DNA from: Dehalococcoidia bacterium
GTDB lineage: Bacteria; Chloroflexota; Dehalococcoidia; Plut-88900
NCBI GenBank assembly: GCA_012270635.1
Contig: JAAXHX010000450.1
Coordinates: 1-8,966 of the forward strand
Direction of reading: 5' to 3'
DNA: 8,966 bases
Shown piece after piece: positions 3,837 to 8,966 of this stretch. A program made the position numbers and the translations under genes. Under the pieces are notes generated by a model. It was not told the DNA's origin. It saw nothing but the letters and a program-made list of their open reading frames with translations, and made no database searches. Numbering within the stretch: position 1 is the stretch's first letter; every line of letters starts with the position of its first letter.

Positions 3837-3875
3837 GTTGCGCCCCTCTTTTCGCCTCCGCGAAATTTGGCGGCA

Positions 3876-3904
3876 ATGATATCCCCCCTCGGCCCTTTCA
3901 GCAA
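3876..3904 (-). promoter_or_regulatory. Candidate sigma70-type promoter of the CoA-transferase operon
   Basis: On the minus strand, TTGCTG (3904-3899) and TATCAT (3881-3876) are separated by exactly 17 bases. Transcription would start near 3869, giving a leader of about 33 bases that contains the GAGGGG ribosome site of the ATG at 3836. The -10 box runs straight into ATTGCC, as do the -10 boxes of the two MFS genes on the right. The -35 match is weak (TTG only). Confidence 0.45.
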
Positions 3905-3931
3905 CACGCAAGTCCCTGCGCCACTTGGCTG

Positions 3932-3960
3932 TTGCGCGCGCCCATCCAAGCCTTTATATT
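3932..3960 (+). promoter_or_regulatory. Candidate promoter of the small plus-strand transcription unit
   Basis: TTGCGC (3932-3937), a 17-base spacer, then TATATT (3955-3960), the best -10 box in the window and in a locally AT-richer patch. Start would be near 3967, just ahead of the extended Shine-Dalgarno sequence. It is back to back with the CoA-transferase promoter, with 27 bases between the two -35 boxes, so one regulator could serve both. Confidence 0.5.
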
Positions 3961-3972
3961 GGGGGTACACTC

Positions 3973-3989
3973 AGAAAGGAGGTGATCCA
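3973..3989 (+). promoter_or_regulatory. Perfect 17-base complement of the 16S rRNA 3' tail (extended Shine-Dalgarno)
   Basis: AGAAAGGAGGTGATCCA is the exact reverse complement of the generic bacterial 16S rRNA end TGGATCACCTCCTTTCT. No other gene in the window has more than a 4-6 base Shine-Dalgarno. Its AGGAGG core ends 7 bases before the TTG at 3990, the ideal distance. It may be an extremely strong ribosome site, or an RNA that pairs with the 30S subunit. The sequence past the 17 bases no longer matches 16S in either direction, so it is not a 16S gene fragment of useful length. Confidence 0.6.
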
Positions 3990-4034
3990 TTGGATAAAAG
4001 CGACGAACGGACTGGTGAGGTGTCTGTAACGTAA
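3990..4034 (+). CDS. Possible 14-residue leader or micropeptide ORF
   Basis: TTG start, 14 codons reading MDKSDERTGEVSVT, stop TAA at 4032-4034. The only support for translation is its position: directly after a promoter and a perfect extended ribosome site with 7-base spacing. The peptide is short, hydrophilic and charged, with no membrane segment and no run of one amino acid as in classical attenuator peptides. The stop codon falls in the loop of the hairpin 4020-4046, so a ribosome reaching it would melt that hairpin. An overlapping alternative starts at the GTG inside the ribosome site (3983) and ends at 4030, but is badly placed. I do not recognise the peptide. Confidence 0.35.
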   Translation: MDKSDERTGEVSVT

Positions 4035-4134
4035 ACGGTTAGACACGTAGGGGGCGTCCCCTGGGTTCCCGTTTGCGGAATCCGAACAGACGCCGGGTCC
4101 CGAAGTTCCCGGGTTGTCCACCGGGACGGCCAAC

Positions 4135-4165
4135 AGGCCGAAGCGCTTCGGGGCCTTTCCCTTTC
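4135..4165 (+). terminator. Terminator-like hairpin between the small RNA and the BtpA-family gene
   Basis: AGGCC (4135-4139) pairs with GGCCT (4152-4156) around the perfect palindrome CCGAAGCGCTTCGG (4138-4151), leaving a GG bulge. TTTCCCTTTCT follows on the plus strand, so it suits a plus-strand transcript best. The same palindrome lies just past the stop of the minus-strand BtpA-family gene and may end both transcripts, although the minus strand has no good T run after it. Confidence 0.5.
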
Positions 4166-4965
4166 TACCCCCTCCCCGTCGACACCAGCCTCGCAACCCT
4201 CTCCCTGTCCACGGGGTTCGATATCACCCCGTCCCTCTTCACGCTAGTCCCTACTATCGCCCCATCCGCCCATTCCAGGTACGTCCCGATATTCTCCTCC
4301 GTCACCCCGCTCCCGACCAGCACCGGCGTCCCCTGAGGTACGGCTTCCTTCACCGCCTTTACATCCGACGGGTCTGCCTCCTCCCCGGTGAAGGGGCCCG
4401 TCACGATCAGGGCATCGGCCAGCCCTCGGTGTACCGCCGCCCTGGCCGCATCCCTGATGTCCTGCTCGCCGAGAGGGACCGCATGCTTCACCAGCACGTC
4501 AGCCAACAGCTTCACCCTAGCCCCCAGCCCCGACCTCCGTCTCACCGTCTCCGCAGCCCGACCCTCGACGATGCCCTGGTCGGTGACCATCACCCCCGTA
4601 TGAACGTTCACCCTGATGAACTCGCCCCCGGTGGCATACGCCAGGCCGAGGGCTGCTATCGAGTCGTTGCGAAGCACGTTCACTCCAAAGGGCACGGCGA
4701 TGCTCCTGCCAACCCTTTCGATGACGACGGCCATCGCCGCCACGGTCTCCGGCGGCACGGGGCCGCTGAGGAACGGCACGTCCCCGAAGTTTTCGAATAT
4801 CACCGCGTCTACTCCACCCTGGGCCAGGGTCTCGGCGTCCCGAAGGGCGTGCTCCACCACCCGGTCCAAGTCGCCCCGCCAACCCGGGCTGCCGGGCAGT
4901 GGCGGCAGGTGCACCACCCCAATGATCTCCTTATGGCTCCCGCGGTCCTCGTCCAGAATCGGCAT
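4165..4965 (-). CDS. BtpA/SgcQ-family TIM-barrel protein
   Basis: A 266-residue protein covering the whole BtpA (photosystem I biogenesis)/SgcQ family. Family landmarks in order: IIGVVHLPPLPGSP (14-27), GVDAVIFENFGDVPF (51-65), VPFGVNVLRND (91-101), FIRVNVHTGVMVTDQG (116-131), VKLLADVLVKHA (151-162), ALIVTGPFTGEEAD (185-198), PVLVGSGVTEENI (214-226) and DGAIVGTSVKRDG (234-246), the last two resembling a phosphate-binding end of a beta/alpha barrel. It is cytoplasmic, with no signal or membrane segment. In cyanobacteria BtpA stabilises photosystem I, but homologues are widespread in non-photosynthetic bacteria (SgcQ of E. coli lies in a sugar operon) and are thought to be enzymes of unknown reaction. 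ATG 4965 is preceded by GGGGG at 5-9 bases. It is divergent from the Rieske oxygenase gene, 143 bases apart. No sign of photosynthesis is seen here. Confidence 0.93.
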   Translation of the reverse strand: MPILDEDRGSHKEIIGVVHLPPLPGSPGWRGDLDRVVEHALRDAETLAQGGVDAVIFENFGDVPFLSGPVPPETVAAMAVVIERVGRSIAVPFGVNVLRNDSIAALGLAYATGGEFIRVNVHTGVMVTDQGIVEGRAAETVRRRSGLGARVKLLADVLVKHAVPLGEQDIRDAARAAVHRGLADALIVTGPFTGEEADPSDVKAVKEAVPQGTPVLVGSGVTEENIGTYLEWADGAIVGTSVKRDGVISNPVDRERVARLVSTGRG

Positions 4966-5053: not shown

Positions 5054-5108
5054 CACCCGCATACTGGGATTCCCGGACTCGGACCGTTAGCGAGGGGTGA
5101 GGCGCGCT

Positions 5109-6423: not shown

Positions 6424-6461
6424 CCGGGAATGCGCCAGGAGCATTCCCGGTCTTCTTTTCC
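6424..6461 (+). terminator. Intrinsic terminator of the Rieske oxygenase gene
   Basis: Perfect 10-base stem CCGGGAATGC (6424-6433) and GCATTCCCGG (6441-6450) with a 7-base loop, followed by TCTTCTTTTCC. It lies 29 bases after the oxygenase stop and separates that gene from the MFS pair. An in-frame ATG at 6430 lies inside the stem, one reason not to use it as the start of MFS 2. Confidence 0.87.
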
Positions 6462-6471
6462 TACCCGGCAA

Positions 6472-6488
6472 CGGTGGAAATCTCACCG
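6472..6488 (+). other. Inverted repeat upstream of MFS 2, possible operator
   Basis: CGGTG (6472-6476) and CACCG (6484-6488) with a 7-base spacer, ending 15 bases before the -10 box TAGGAT (6504), so a repressor or activator there would contact the polymerase. Short arms, so it may be chance; no copy is seen before MFS 3. Confidence 0.25.
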
Positions 6489-6500
6489 ACATTCCATCAG

Positions 6501-6509
6501 TGTTAGGAT
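6501..6509 (+). promoter_or_regulatory. Extended -10 element for leaderless MFS 2 transcript
   Basis: TGTTAGGAT, exactly 10 bases before ATG 6520. The arrangement is repeated before the next MFS gene, and no Shine-Dalgarno lies between element and ATG, so the transcript probably starts at or a few bases before the ATG. No recognisable -35; that region holds the inverted repeat CGGTG-7-CACCG (6472-6488). Confidence 0.45.
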
Positions 6510-6519
6510 TGCCACCGTC

Positions 6520-7761
6520 ATGGCGCAGGCAGTCCGGCAAATATCCCGGATGGGGCAAAGCCCCACCTATGGGTGGGTCGTCATCCTCACCTGGATGGCC
6601 ATCCACATGTGGGGATATCTGGTCATGGAGACCCTTGGCCTCTTCCTCCCAAGCATGAGAGAGGAGGAAGAGCTCGGTCTCACCCCGGTGCGTGAAGGGC
6701 TGCTCGGGGCGGCGCCCCAGTTCACGGTCCTGGCATTATCCATACCCTTCGGCCTGTACCTGTCTCGCTTCTCCGCAAAGCTCCTAACCCTGGCGTCCGT
6801 GGTGGGTGCGGTTCTGGTCATATTCATGCAGGCCTGGGCCCCGGTCTACGGTTTCCTACTCCTGGCGAGGGCTCTTTACGGTCTCTCCATAACGCTGAGG
6901 GAGCCGGCCCGCACCCTGCTCCTCAGGATGTGGATAAAGCCCCGCCAGATACTCATAGCCAACGCCTCCATCGAACTGCTGTGGGGCATAGGCGCGGCGT
7001 TATTCATCGTGGTGCCGATAATCATGAAGGCCCTGGACGGCGATTGGCGCAGGACCATGCAGGTGTTCGGCTACGCAACCATCCTGGTGGCCGTTGTGTG
7101 GTTACTTGTGGGCAAAGAACGCCCCATGCCCGACGCCGAGACCGAAAGAGAAATTAAAGAGCCCGTGTCCATAAGGAGCACCTTGCGTTACAAGGAGCTG
7201 TGGCTTCTGGCCATCGGGCTGGTTGGAGTCGAGATGACCTTCGCCTCCTTCGCCACCTTCTGGCCCAGCCACATGAAAGACACATACGGCATCGACATCC
7301 AGACCTCCGCCCTGATCTGGGCCATCGGCGGCATGGTTGCCGGGCCCTCGGGCCTGGGCATCAATCTCATGGTCAACAGGACCGGCAGGCGCAGAACGGC
7401 TCTCCGCATAGGCGGAGCATTGATATCCGTGACCACCGTAGCCCTGCTCTATTCCGGGTCTTTCCCGGTGCTCGTGGCCATCTCATTGCTCCACGGCCTT
7501 AGCTTCACCTTCTTTCCGGTGATATTCACCATACCTTTTCAGTTGAAGGGAATCCGCACCCGGGAAATCGCTGTGGCCATGGGCTTCTTGAGATCGGCTC
7601 TGATGGTGGGAGCAATGGGCGGCCCGGTAGTAGCGGGGGTGCTTCACGAACTCTCCGACGACCGACGCCTGGCCCTGACCATCGTGGGCATGGCCGGTAT
7701 GTCCCTGACCATCGGCGCCTTCTTCCTCTCCTCCGAGTGGGACCGCCGCCCCAGCGACTAA
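6520..7761 (+). CDS. MFS transporter 2
   Basis: A 413-residue major facilitator carrier of about 12 helices. The frame opens at ATG 6430, but I use ATG 6520 (MAQAVRQ...): the protein then starts exactly like its tandem copy (MPQVARR...), the upstream DNA is conserved between the two up to this ATG, and 6430 lies in the terminator of the preceding gene. Features: first helix from YGWVVIL (17), LSRFSAK in the loop between helices 2 and 3 (81-87), REPARTLLLRMW (127-138), GDWRR (174-178), a charged central linker (199-222), RYKELW (223-228), and IRTREIAVAMGFLRSA (345-360) in the C-terminal half. By eye about two-thirds of residues match MFS 3, while MFS 1 shares only scattered motifs. It has two extra acidic residues (REEEELG) in the first outer loop relative to MFS 3. 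Downstream of the Rieske oxygenase it may import that enzyme's substrate, but it sits behind a terminator with its own promoter, so the link is weak. Confidence 0.93.
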   Translation: MAQAVRQISRMGQSPTYGWVVILTWMAIHMWGYLVMETLGLFLPSMREEEELGLTPVREGLLGAAPQFTVLALSIPFGLYLSRFSAKLLTLASVVGAVLVIFMQAWAPVYGFLLLARALYGLSITLREPARTLLLRMWIKPRQILIANASIELLWGIGAALFIVVPIIMKALDGDWRRTMQVFGYATILVAVVWLLVGKERPMPDAETEREIKEPVSIRSTLRYKELWLLAIGLVGVEMTFASFATFWPSHMKDTYGIDIQTSALIWAIGGMVAGPSGLGINLMVNRTGRRRTALRIGGALISVTTVALLYSGSFPVLVAISLLHGLSFTFFPVIFTIPFQLKGIRTREIAVAMGFLRSALMVGAMGGPVVAGVLHELSDDRRLALTIVGMAGMSLTIGAFFLSSEWDRRPSD

Positions 7762-7806: not shown

Positions 7807-8966
7807 ATGCCGCAGGTAGCCAGGCGAATAGTACTTTTGGGCCGAAGTCCCACCTATGGGTGGATCGTCGTTCTTTGCTGGATGACCGTCCACATGTGGG
7901 GCTTCCTGGTCATGGAGACCTTCGGGTTGTTCCTGCCCAGCATGAGGGCCGAGTTGTCCCTCACCCCCGTACGGGAGGGATTGCTTGGGGCCGCCCCCCA
8001 GGTTGCCATCCTGATATTCTCCATCCCCTTCGGGCTGCACCTGTCCCGCTTCTCCCCGAAACTGCTCACCCTAGCGTCCATAGCGGGCGCGGTGGCCGTC
8101 ATCTTCTTTCAGGCTTGGGCCCCCGTGTACGCCCTGTTCCTCCTGGGAAGGTTCCTGTATGGCCTATCGCTTACCGTCAGAGAGCCCGCCCATCCCCTCC
8201 TCCTCCGCATGTGGATACCGGCCCGCCAGATACTCGTCGCCAACGCCTCCATTGAACTGCTCTGGAGCCTCGGGTCCGCATTCTTCATCGTCGTGCCGTT
8301 GGTCCTCGAGGCCCTTGGGGGCGATTGGCGAAGGACAATGCAGGTCCTCGGCTACGCAACCATTGGCCTCGGCCTTCTCTGGCTCCTGGTGGGAAGAGAG
8401 CGGCCTGCGTCCTCCGCCGAGGGCGAACCCGATGCCCAACGCCCCGTATCCATCCGCGGCGTTCTCCGCCACAAGGAGCTCTGGTTGTTGGCCATGGGCC
8501 TGCTCGGCGTCGAGATAACCTTCTCATCCTTCGAGACCTTCTGGCCCGCCTTCATGCTCGACCGGTACGACGTCACGATCAAGACTTCGGCATTGCTCTG
8601 GACCATTACGGGGCTGGTCGCCGGGCCTACCGGCTTGGCCGTCAATCTGGTGGTGAACCGGCTGGGTAAGCGCAGGACCGCTTTGCGCATCGGCGGGGTA
8701 TACGTAGTCCTCACCACCATACCCCTTCTCTACTCCGGCTCCTTCCCCGTGCTCGTGGCAATCTCCATTCTCCACGGCATGTGCTTCTCCTTCTACCCCA
8801 TCGTAATGACCATACCCTTCCAGCTGAAGGGCATCCGGGCCCGAGAGATCGCCGTAGCCATGGGATTCTTGACCTCGGCGCTGACCCTGGGCGGGGTCTC
8901 GGGTCCCGTGCTGGCCGGGTTCATTCACGAAGTCTCCGGTGACCAACGTCTCGCCTTGACCTTGGT
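7807..8966 (+). CDS. MFS transporter 3, tandem duplicate of MFS 2, 3' end outside window
   Basis: The frame is open from ATG 7807 to the window edge (386 full codons), so the last helix and stop are missing. The protein is collinear with MFS 2: SPTYGWIVVL, HMWGFLVMETFGLFLPSM, LTPVREGLLGAAPQ, LHLSRFSPKLLTLAS, REPAHPLLLRMW, RQILVANASIELLW, GDWRRTMQV (172-180), RHKELWLLAMGLLGVE, VVNRLGKRRTALRIGG and IRAREIAVAMGFLTSAL. Roughly two-thirds of residues are identical by eye. Divergence is highest in the central linker (PASSAEGEPDAQ against PMPDAETEREIK) and in helix faces, as expected if the copies have shifted substrate. The start is fixed by its match to MFS 2; there is no Shine-Dalgarno. It is probably co-regulated with MFS 2. 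The function as a small-molecule carrier is sure only at superfamily level. Confidence 0.93.
   Translation, partial: MPQVARRIVLLGRSPTYGWIVVLCWMTVHMWGFLVMETFGLFLPSMRAELSLTPVREGLLGAAPQVAILIFSIPFGLHLSRFSPKLLTLASIAGAVAVIFFQAWAPVYALFLLGRFLYGLSLTVREPAHPLLLRMWIPARQILVANASIELLWSLGSAFFIVVPLVLEALGGDWRRTMQVLGYATIGLGLLWLLVGRERPASSAEGEPDAQRPVSIRGVLRHKELWLLAMGLLGVEITFSSFETFWPAFMLDRYDVTIKTSALLWTITGLVAGPTGLAVNLVVNRLGKRRTALRIGGVYVVLTTIPLLYSGSFPVLVAISILHGMCFSFYPIVMTIPFQLKGIRAREIAVAMGFLTSALTLGGVSGPVLAGFIHEVSGDQRLALTL

Follow-up and report, generated by a model that had tools for sequence, protein, structure and literature searches.

A divergent Chloroflexota member of the Ms_IGR-5 RNA family with a candidate translated mini-ORF and a predicted pseudoknot

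Gene organization of the locus

The window, the whole stretch of 8,966 nt of Dehalococcoidia DNA that was analysed, contains a free-standing RNA gene on the plus strand at 3967-4165. A putative promoter lies at 3932-3960 (+), with TTGCGC at 3932-3937 and TATATT at 3955-3960 separated by 17 nt, and transcription would be expected to start at 3967. The 3' part of the RNA forms a terminator arm (4095-4165, +), in which helix P2 joins 4095-4105 with 4146-4156 around inner hairpins, and the T-rich tail TTTCCCTTTC occupies 4156-4165 after hairpins reaching 4156. Generic sigma-70 and terminator scans of 3850-4250 called no promoter and no terminator; both sites are imperfect. The TTG/TA promoter layout precedes all six Chloroflexota elements, the one in the window included, compared with 1.3% of shuffled upstream stretches, and is found upstream of 96 of 117 Actinobacteria, 10 of 11 Acidobacteria and 16 of 18 NC10 type 1 elements. 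It precedes none of the 29 Myxo/Delta elements and only one of eight NC10 type 2 elements, so another promoter type may drive these. Most of the NC10 type 2, Delta- and Myxobacterial elements (L212-L219, L020, L043, L048, L220-L241) start with GCCG, not ACAC.

The RNA gene is flanked upstream by a minus-strand CoA-transferase gene, whose start is placed by eye probably near 3838, and downstream by a convergent BtpA gene (4165-4965). The next large plus-strand gene encodes a Rieske oxygenase and starts at 5097, leaving ~930 nt downstream of the element without a plus-strand gene. The window also contains genes for a methyltransferase, MFS transporters and a thioredoxin-like protein. Two similar MFS transporter genes stand in tandem 3' of the Rieske oxygenase gene (6430-7761 and 7807-8964, +); the first is confirmed by Pfam, and the second, judged from its translation, leaves the window. 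Inside the BtpA gene, a match to the Rfam M23 RNA (4714-4765, minus strand) reaches 27.8 bits against a cut-off of 41.2 and is probably due to chance. The original prediction, made from the letters of the window, had placed a promoter, an anti-16S sequence, a mini-ORF and a terminator in a free-standing unit; all were located as described, and the unit faces a convergent gene.

Neighbouring genes were compared as mechanical ORFs within about 2.5 kb of 42 elements. Shared neighbours occur only within small groups, such as L071, L153 and L154 with the same convergent gene. Between phyla only two matches were found, both weak (L064-L189, 33%; L083-L167, 31%), and the genes flanking the window element match no gene in these 42 flanks. 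The check proposed beforehand, whether copies sit beside the same genes, came out positive within small groups and negative across the 42 flanks. A leader-peptide attenuator of a downstream gene would also combine a short ORF, overlapping hairpins and a terminator. However, with no plus-strand gene for 930 nt and no gene common to the 42 flanks, such a role is highly improbable.

Family identity

Scanning of the window showed a full-length match of 3967-4162 to the Rfam family RF02471 (Ms_IGR-5, "Actinobacteria sRNA"; model positions 1-184 of 184) with 45.6 bits against a cut-off of 45 and an E value of 6.4e-8. A described family therefore exists for the window RNA, contrary to the earlier statement that none matches, although the score lies just above the cut-off. 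The window element shares with RF02471 the 5' ACAC-AAGGAGG start, the GGAC..GUGAGGUG block and the GUCC hairpin, and the consensus letters of the family themselves read as a TTG ORF, LIDLWTCEVAAR-stop. The window element is a borderline and divergent member of RF02471, and the identity is firm. The full elements nearest to it are in Chloroflexota. Among the relatives, L122, L195 and L199 score 57.6, 65.7 and 61.0 bits, above the cut-off, whereas the Chloroflexota relatives L152, L153 and L154 reach 34-39 bits, below the cut-off of 45. The family is named for Actinobacteria, whereas the window element comes from Chloroflexota. NC10 elements also score above the cut-off, and the Actinobacterial restriction thus sits in the family name, not in the model. 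Three of eight genomes searched have an RF02471 match above the cut-off, among them record L102, whose element is of the NC10 type; no match above it was found in 14 named control genomes, Caulobacter vibrioides and Thermus composti giving weak ones.

Structural comparison with the Rfam entry showed two differences. In the Rfam consensus structure, the anti-16S region is paired to the codons that follow Glu-Val (E-V), and the P1 pairing (GGUG with CACC) and the pseudoknot, both of which were found here, are missing. Membership of RF01867 (CC2171, Caulobacter sRNA) was rejected, the match reaching 18.4 bits against a cut-off of 75. The CC2171 consensus also begins with GAAAGGAGGUGAUCCAGUG, so that a mini-ORF and a full anti-16S site may be combined there too; its letters lack the GAGGUG-stop block of the window element. 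In the window, ARAGORN found no tmRNA or tRNA gene, and there was no such Rfam match.

Distribution across phyla

Species genomes contain at least 118 loci with the pattern AAAGGAGGTGATCC-(10-40)-GTGAGGTG. Among the matches listed, most are from Streptomyces and other Actinobacteria, and further ones are in records titled Methylomirabilota/NC10, Acidobacteria, Myxococcales, Lujinxingiaceae, Deltaproteobacteria, Spirochaetia, Wallbacteria and Chloroflexota. A sequence-only model of 39 sequences, R1, was then run on whole genomes, seed genomes included. At E 1e-5, it matched 4 of 247 genomes in the order of the Chloroflexota seed and, in the phyla of the other seeds, 29 of 198 (Streptomyces), 11 of 119 (Acidobacteria), 71 of 79 (NC10), 22 of 140 (Myxococcales), 3 of 148 (Deltaproteobacteria) and 5 of 149 (Spirochaetia), with one match per matching genome. 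These tallies are probably low, given the strict filters and the limited number of candidates scored per genome. In the 349 genomes from the phylum of a Burkholderiales record, the sole match was that record's own false seed. In several of the phyla searched, most genomes lack the element or gave no match to it, which marks it as dispensable. A phage origin was rejected, as viral contigs gave no match to AAAGGAGGTGRTCC...GTGAGGTG.

Relaxing the threshold to E 0.01 gave matches in 139 of 301 genomes, of which only those in G137 and G001, among the matches listed, span the model. L126 and L127, found at this threshold, are not elements, and five more of the seven inspected consist of a 16S-tail-like stretch only; such short 16S-tail pieces reach about 18-21 bits with R1 in many genomes. 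Lack of conservation in relatives had been named as grounds for dropping the prediction, and the opposite was found. As judged by these matches, the Ms_IGR-5 element is not confined to Actinobacteria and is a multi-phylum element.

The anti-16S site

The site SD1 (3973-3989, +), AGAAAGGAGGTGATCCA, is a 17-base exact complement of the generic 16S rRNA 3' end, as had been noted. The 16S gene in the genome of the Chloroflexota record L071, a relative and not the host, ends in TGGATCACCTCCTTTCT, the exact complement of the window 17-mer. The 16S-tail pattern was found in two of 15 genomes; in the other 13, the 16S gene is not assembled or has a different tail. The 14-mer core of SD1 occurs once in the window and in none of 200 shuffles of it, and the calculated energy of the 17-mer on the 16S tail is -30 kcal/mol.

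Changes in SD1 were counted in 80 distinct elements, with no base of the site fixed and nine seed genomes left out. Within the 560 cells of the core A/C sites, 68 transitions keep a G-U pair and 20 transversions lose the pairing, whereas the 560 cells of the core G/T sites show only four transitions and two transversions, all pair-losing. The excess of 68 pair-keeping over four pair-losing transitions points to selection for pairing with the 30S tail, in line with the predicted 30S binding. Of the 80 elements, 38 can pair with the 16S tail over an unbroken 17 nt and 78 over at least 11 nt; two have a run of only 7 nt. The outermost G of the 17-mer is A in 23 of the 80, with loss of the pair, so selection appears to act on the inner 14-15 nt. 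Staphylococcus aureus has mRNAs with an extended Shine-Dalgarno sequence (PMC13009471), whose contact with the 16S tail likewise exceeds the usual core; as described in the available text of that report, however, these are ordinary mRNAs with two extra base pairs, whereas the RNA here is free-standing and pairs over up to 17 nt.

The RNA could be a plain decoy whose anti-16S sequence withholds 30S subunits, with translation of the ORF being incidental. The 16S-tail pairing, conserved far beyond ordinary need, speaks for a decoy, but the in-frame start, the open frame and the fixed stop described below would be left unexplained, as would the covarying fold around the stop. A decoy alone is thus an unlikely account.

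The mini-ORF and its fixed stop

A mini-ORF with a TTG start 7 nt after GGAGG occupies 3990-4034 (+). It consists of 14 codons and TAA and encodes (M)DKSDERTGEVSVT; the frame is conserved in relatives. Across the pattern loci among the matches listed plus the window, an in-frame start codon lies 1-8 nt after GATCC in 117 of 119, and a stop follows exactly three codons after GAG GTG in 116 of 119. After removal of duplicates and of the false loci L024 and L028, 93 distinct loci remain among the matches listed. The frame from the start to GAG is open in all 93, compared with 10 and none for the other two frames, and a stop is found at the fixed site, 9 nt after GAGGUG, in 92 (TAG 59, TAA 18, TGA 15). 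Since these loci were chosen for GTGAGGTG, the R1 loci are a fairer test of the frame. A search at the amino-acid level found an E-V ORF in 94 of 99 R1 loci, nine of which are from seed genomes; the exceptions are L174, L180, L192, L193 and L235. All 94 have three codons to the stop, though two to five were allowed, and 93 encode E-V as GAG GTG. With the seeds removed and any Glu-Val codons allowed, the ORF was found in 89 of 90 R1 elements (88 GAGGTG and one GAGGTA). The proposed translation of the mini-ORF is thus supported by the same open frame in both sets of loci, and the TTG mini-ORF is, on this comparative evidence, genuine.

A larger set of 197 elements, picked by the presence of GAGGT[GA] with a stop at +9, was used for the counts of the pseudoknot, helices P0 and P1 and codon changes; because it was selected on the stop, the fixed stop is argued from the pattern and R1 loci instead. 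The start codons in 195 elements of this set are GTG (81), ATG (63), TTG (38) and CTG (13), and L180 and L181 lack a start codon of these four accepted kinds. The ORF is 11-17 codons long in 193 of the 195. The Chloroflexota peptides, with the first residue as encoded, are LDKSDERTGEVSVT in the window, LLSDKRAVSEVSVA in L071, LLSDRWTASEVSVA in L152, MIDSDKRTSREVSVP in L153, LISDKRTCSEVSEA in L154 and MIRIWTREVPVL in L122.

The fold and the pseudoknot

The predicted fold of 3967-4165 has an energy of -88.3 kcal/mol (z -3.4), with one of 200 shuffles as low. RNAalifold analysis of 20 Chloroflexota and NC10 sequences gave helices P1 and P1b and the terminator arm with its inner hairpins, with both-sided changes in 18 of 37 pairs. 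In the window, the P1 5' strand (4019-4027, +) pairs with the 3' strand at 4086-4094 (+), and the P1b 5' strand (4030-4037, +), which holds the stop codon, pairs with 4070-4077 (+). The third base of the stop codon covaries with its partner (G-C 14, A-U 4, G-U 1 and unpaired 1 among the 20). In the 197-element set, P1 scores at least 7/8 in 113 of 187 elements, compared with 32% with the arms exchanged.

In the predicted pseudoknot, the two codons that precede the xGU codon pair with the P3 hairpin loop. Its 5' strand in the window is CGGACT (4008-4013, +; codons 7-8), of which GGAC at 4009-4012 would pair with the loop GUCC (4116-4119) of P3 (4107-4126, +), and it covaries across elements. 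The complement of the element's own 4-nt core is present in a hairpin loop in 132 of 197 elements. Among 91 GGAC elements, 79 have GUCC and three AUCC, and among 40 GGAT elements, 32 have AUCC and 16 GUCC; pairing extends to the next facing bases in 98 of 111 GGAC/GGAT cases. The exact core complement is absent from hairpin loops in 65 of the 197, including L071, L152, L153 and L154, in which the codon spacing differs and, by eye, the pairing occurs in a shifted register. A looser test, the longest match anywhere downstream, gave at least 6 nt in 97 of 197 elements versus 19% permuted, the permutation figures being uncorrected for relatedness of the elements; it separated only moderately and was replaced by the hairpin-loop test. 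A further hairpin, P0, between the end of SD1 with the start codon and the bases before GGAC was rejected, with a mean of 2.01 pairs against 1.50 permuted in 137 distinct arm pairs and no pairs in the window; some NC10 and Actinobacteria elements could plausibly form it, and overall it is weak.

A model with the fold, R2, was built from the 20 Chloroflexota and NC10 sequences. It scores 109-116 bits in Acidobacteria, up to 80 in Actinobacteria, up to 79 in Deltaproteobacteria and up to 57.5 in Spirochaetia, compared with 18-20 bits for three 16S decoys and 20.9 and 32.8 bits for the false seeds L028 and L024; 88 of 89 sources gave an R2 match. R2 is not sufficient alone, since the ORF-bearing L041, L187 and L189 score 19.9, 16.9 and 13.5 bits, no better than the decoys. 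In the R2 alignment (86 distinct rows with five decoys), 92.7% of the cells are paired and the covariation is 0.536 versus 0.045-0.068 when slid; as the alignment is fitted to the structure, its pair counts are favoured. The call for covariation in relatives is thus answered by P1, P1b and the pseudoknot, and, as far as the alignments tell, covarying helices and a long-range pseudoknot incorporate the last codons together with the stop. A chance copy or fragment of antisense 16S, as the many short 16S-tail pieces matched by R1 might suggest, is refuted by the conserved frame, the pseudoknot pairing and the R2 scores; the conservation of the promoter and the lone false seed in the 349 genomes of the Burkholderiales phylum further reduce its probability to a negligible level.

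The false seed in the Burkholderiales record (L024:2610-2792) is itself a free-standing unit; it combines AAAGGAGGTGATCCA-GTG and a strong terminator with a different ORF, about 26 codons long as read by eye. Despite 32.8 bits with R2, it lacks the E-V-stop block. Mini-mRNAs with full anti-16S sites may comprise more than one family.

Probable selection on the act of translation rather than on the peptide

Codon changes were analysed with each ORF used once and an expectation that assumes equal mutation rates. Between the start and the pseudoknot hexamer, 44 close pairs show 27, 25 and 17 differences at codon positions 1, 2 and 3, and 12 of 69 changes are synonymous, where 20% would be expected without selection. 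In the three codons before the stop, 23 of 83 changes are synonymous (59 pairs; 31% expected). These counts give no sign of purifying selection on the residues outside E-V, and the micropeptide selected for its sequence that had been envisaged is not supported. A functional micropeptide would act through a T-[RCGS]-E-V core on the ribosome or another protein, the RNA being a very efficient mRNA. The strong ribosome site and the retention of the frame and of E-V across phyla are compatible with such a role. However, the residues ahead of the core and those following E-V change as freely as expected in the absence of selection, the conserved Thr codon falls on the pseudoknot strand, and E-V is almost invariably encoded by GAG GTG although synonymous codons exist, which points to the RNA and against the peptide. 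We regard a functional micropeptide as improbable. Since the frame is kept and the amino-acid content is not, the act of translation, not the peptide, appears to be under selection, with E-V inseparable from the RNA constraint. Dual-function and peptide-coding sRNAs such as RyhB/RyhP (PMC5331693) also carry a translated short ORF on a small RNA; compared with what the available text describes for these, the residues of the present family lack purifying selection and its stop codon is part of the RNA fold.

Transcripts of the family have been reported, as given in the available parts of the respective texts. RNA-seq supports a transcript of the family in S. lividans (PMC8079986), in S. avermitilis the family counts among the sRNA transcription units (PMC8780764), and the M. 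smegmatis transcript ncMSMEG15794c overlaps IGR-5 (PMC10454040). Significant ribosomal reads occur on Ms_IGR-5 homologs of M. abscessus and M. smegmatis (PMC4974804); the same text states that most characterised E. coli ncRNAs carry ribosome footprints and warns that many non-coding RNAs show ribosome reads. In the open-licence literature, text search recognised no paper on an Ms_IGR-5 function or ORF, and IGR does not occur in the text of a survey on peptide coding by sRNAs (PMC5521070). The RNA may alternatively be a base-pairing regulatory sRNA, whose 3' half (the UCACC-like P1 strand and the GUCC loop) would target mRNAs and be exposed or hidden by ribosome entry. The fold does sequester the P1 strand and the GUCC loop, and the portions of these reports at hand place the family among sRNAs in Streptomyces and mycobacteria. 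However, the strands covary with internal partners, unlike conserved target contacts, making a regulatory sRNA of this kind a rather doubtful explanation.

A proposed model of a ribosome-operated RNA

We tentatively propose, as the likeliest of the readings considered and one with a substantial though limited chance of being right, that the window RNA is a free-standing, ~200-nt structural RNA operated by the ribosome, which would capture 30S subunits and park or gate the ribosome at the stop. The first two steps are supported by the comparison of elements. The 5' end of the RNA would pair with the whole 16S 3' tail, and such pairing should make the RNA compete very strongly for 30S subunits. 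The ribosome would then start within a few bases and read usually 11-17 codons of unconstrained amino-acid content. In the third step, supported in its geometry, it would reach the stop at a fixed place inside the knotted fold. Terminating at this position, it would occupy the pseudoknot strand, GAGGUG and the 5' halves of P1 and P1b, so that termination and the closed fold would be mutually exclusive and the fold would be opened.

GAGGTG (4017-4022, +), the Glu-Val codons, is a possible second anti-16S site. It lies 6 nt before the last sense codon and 9 nt before the stop, and the same hexamer ahead of the window ORF lies at a similar distance, 5 nt, from the start codon. Ribosome pausing occurs at internal SD-like sequences. 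In the fourth step, GAGGUG might rebind the 16S tail and hold the ribosome or the 30S subunit, perhaps delaying release. Alternatively, the invariance of GAGGUG may be purely structural, with GGUG serving as a P1 strand or junction. In the last step of the proposed model, the RNA would alternate between a closed fold and an open form held by the ribosome, and would in this way store or sense initiating ribosomes.

Extension of the model to the family gives a multi-phylum class of stand-alone RNAs with the ribosome as ligand, in which a full-tail landing site, an in-frame start, a neutral open frame, a stop in a pseudoknotted fold and a second anti-16S sequence in phase with termination would be kept by selection and would serve to park ribosomes or to report initiation and termination capacity. 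This extension is possible, and we advance it with more reserve. In the open-licence literature, text search gave no account of RF02471 working in such a way.

Implications for the family

RF02471 is best redescribed as a multi-phylum, translated and pseudoknotted RNA, and the Ms_IGR-5 annotation would change in its coding frame, pseudoknot and taxonomic range. If the proposed model is true, an orphan Actinobacteria sRNA would become an RNA of several phyla whose translation is an end in itself, and a natural example of an RNA that is switched by a ribosome occupying a stop codon, with no downstream gene. It would also provide a testable reason for a transcript to keep a full anti-16S sequence.
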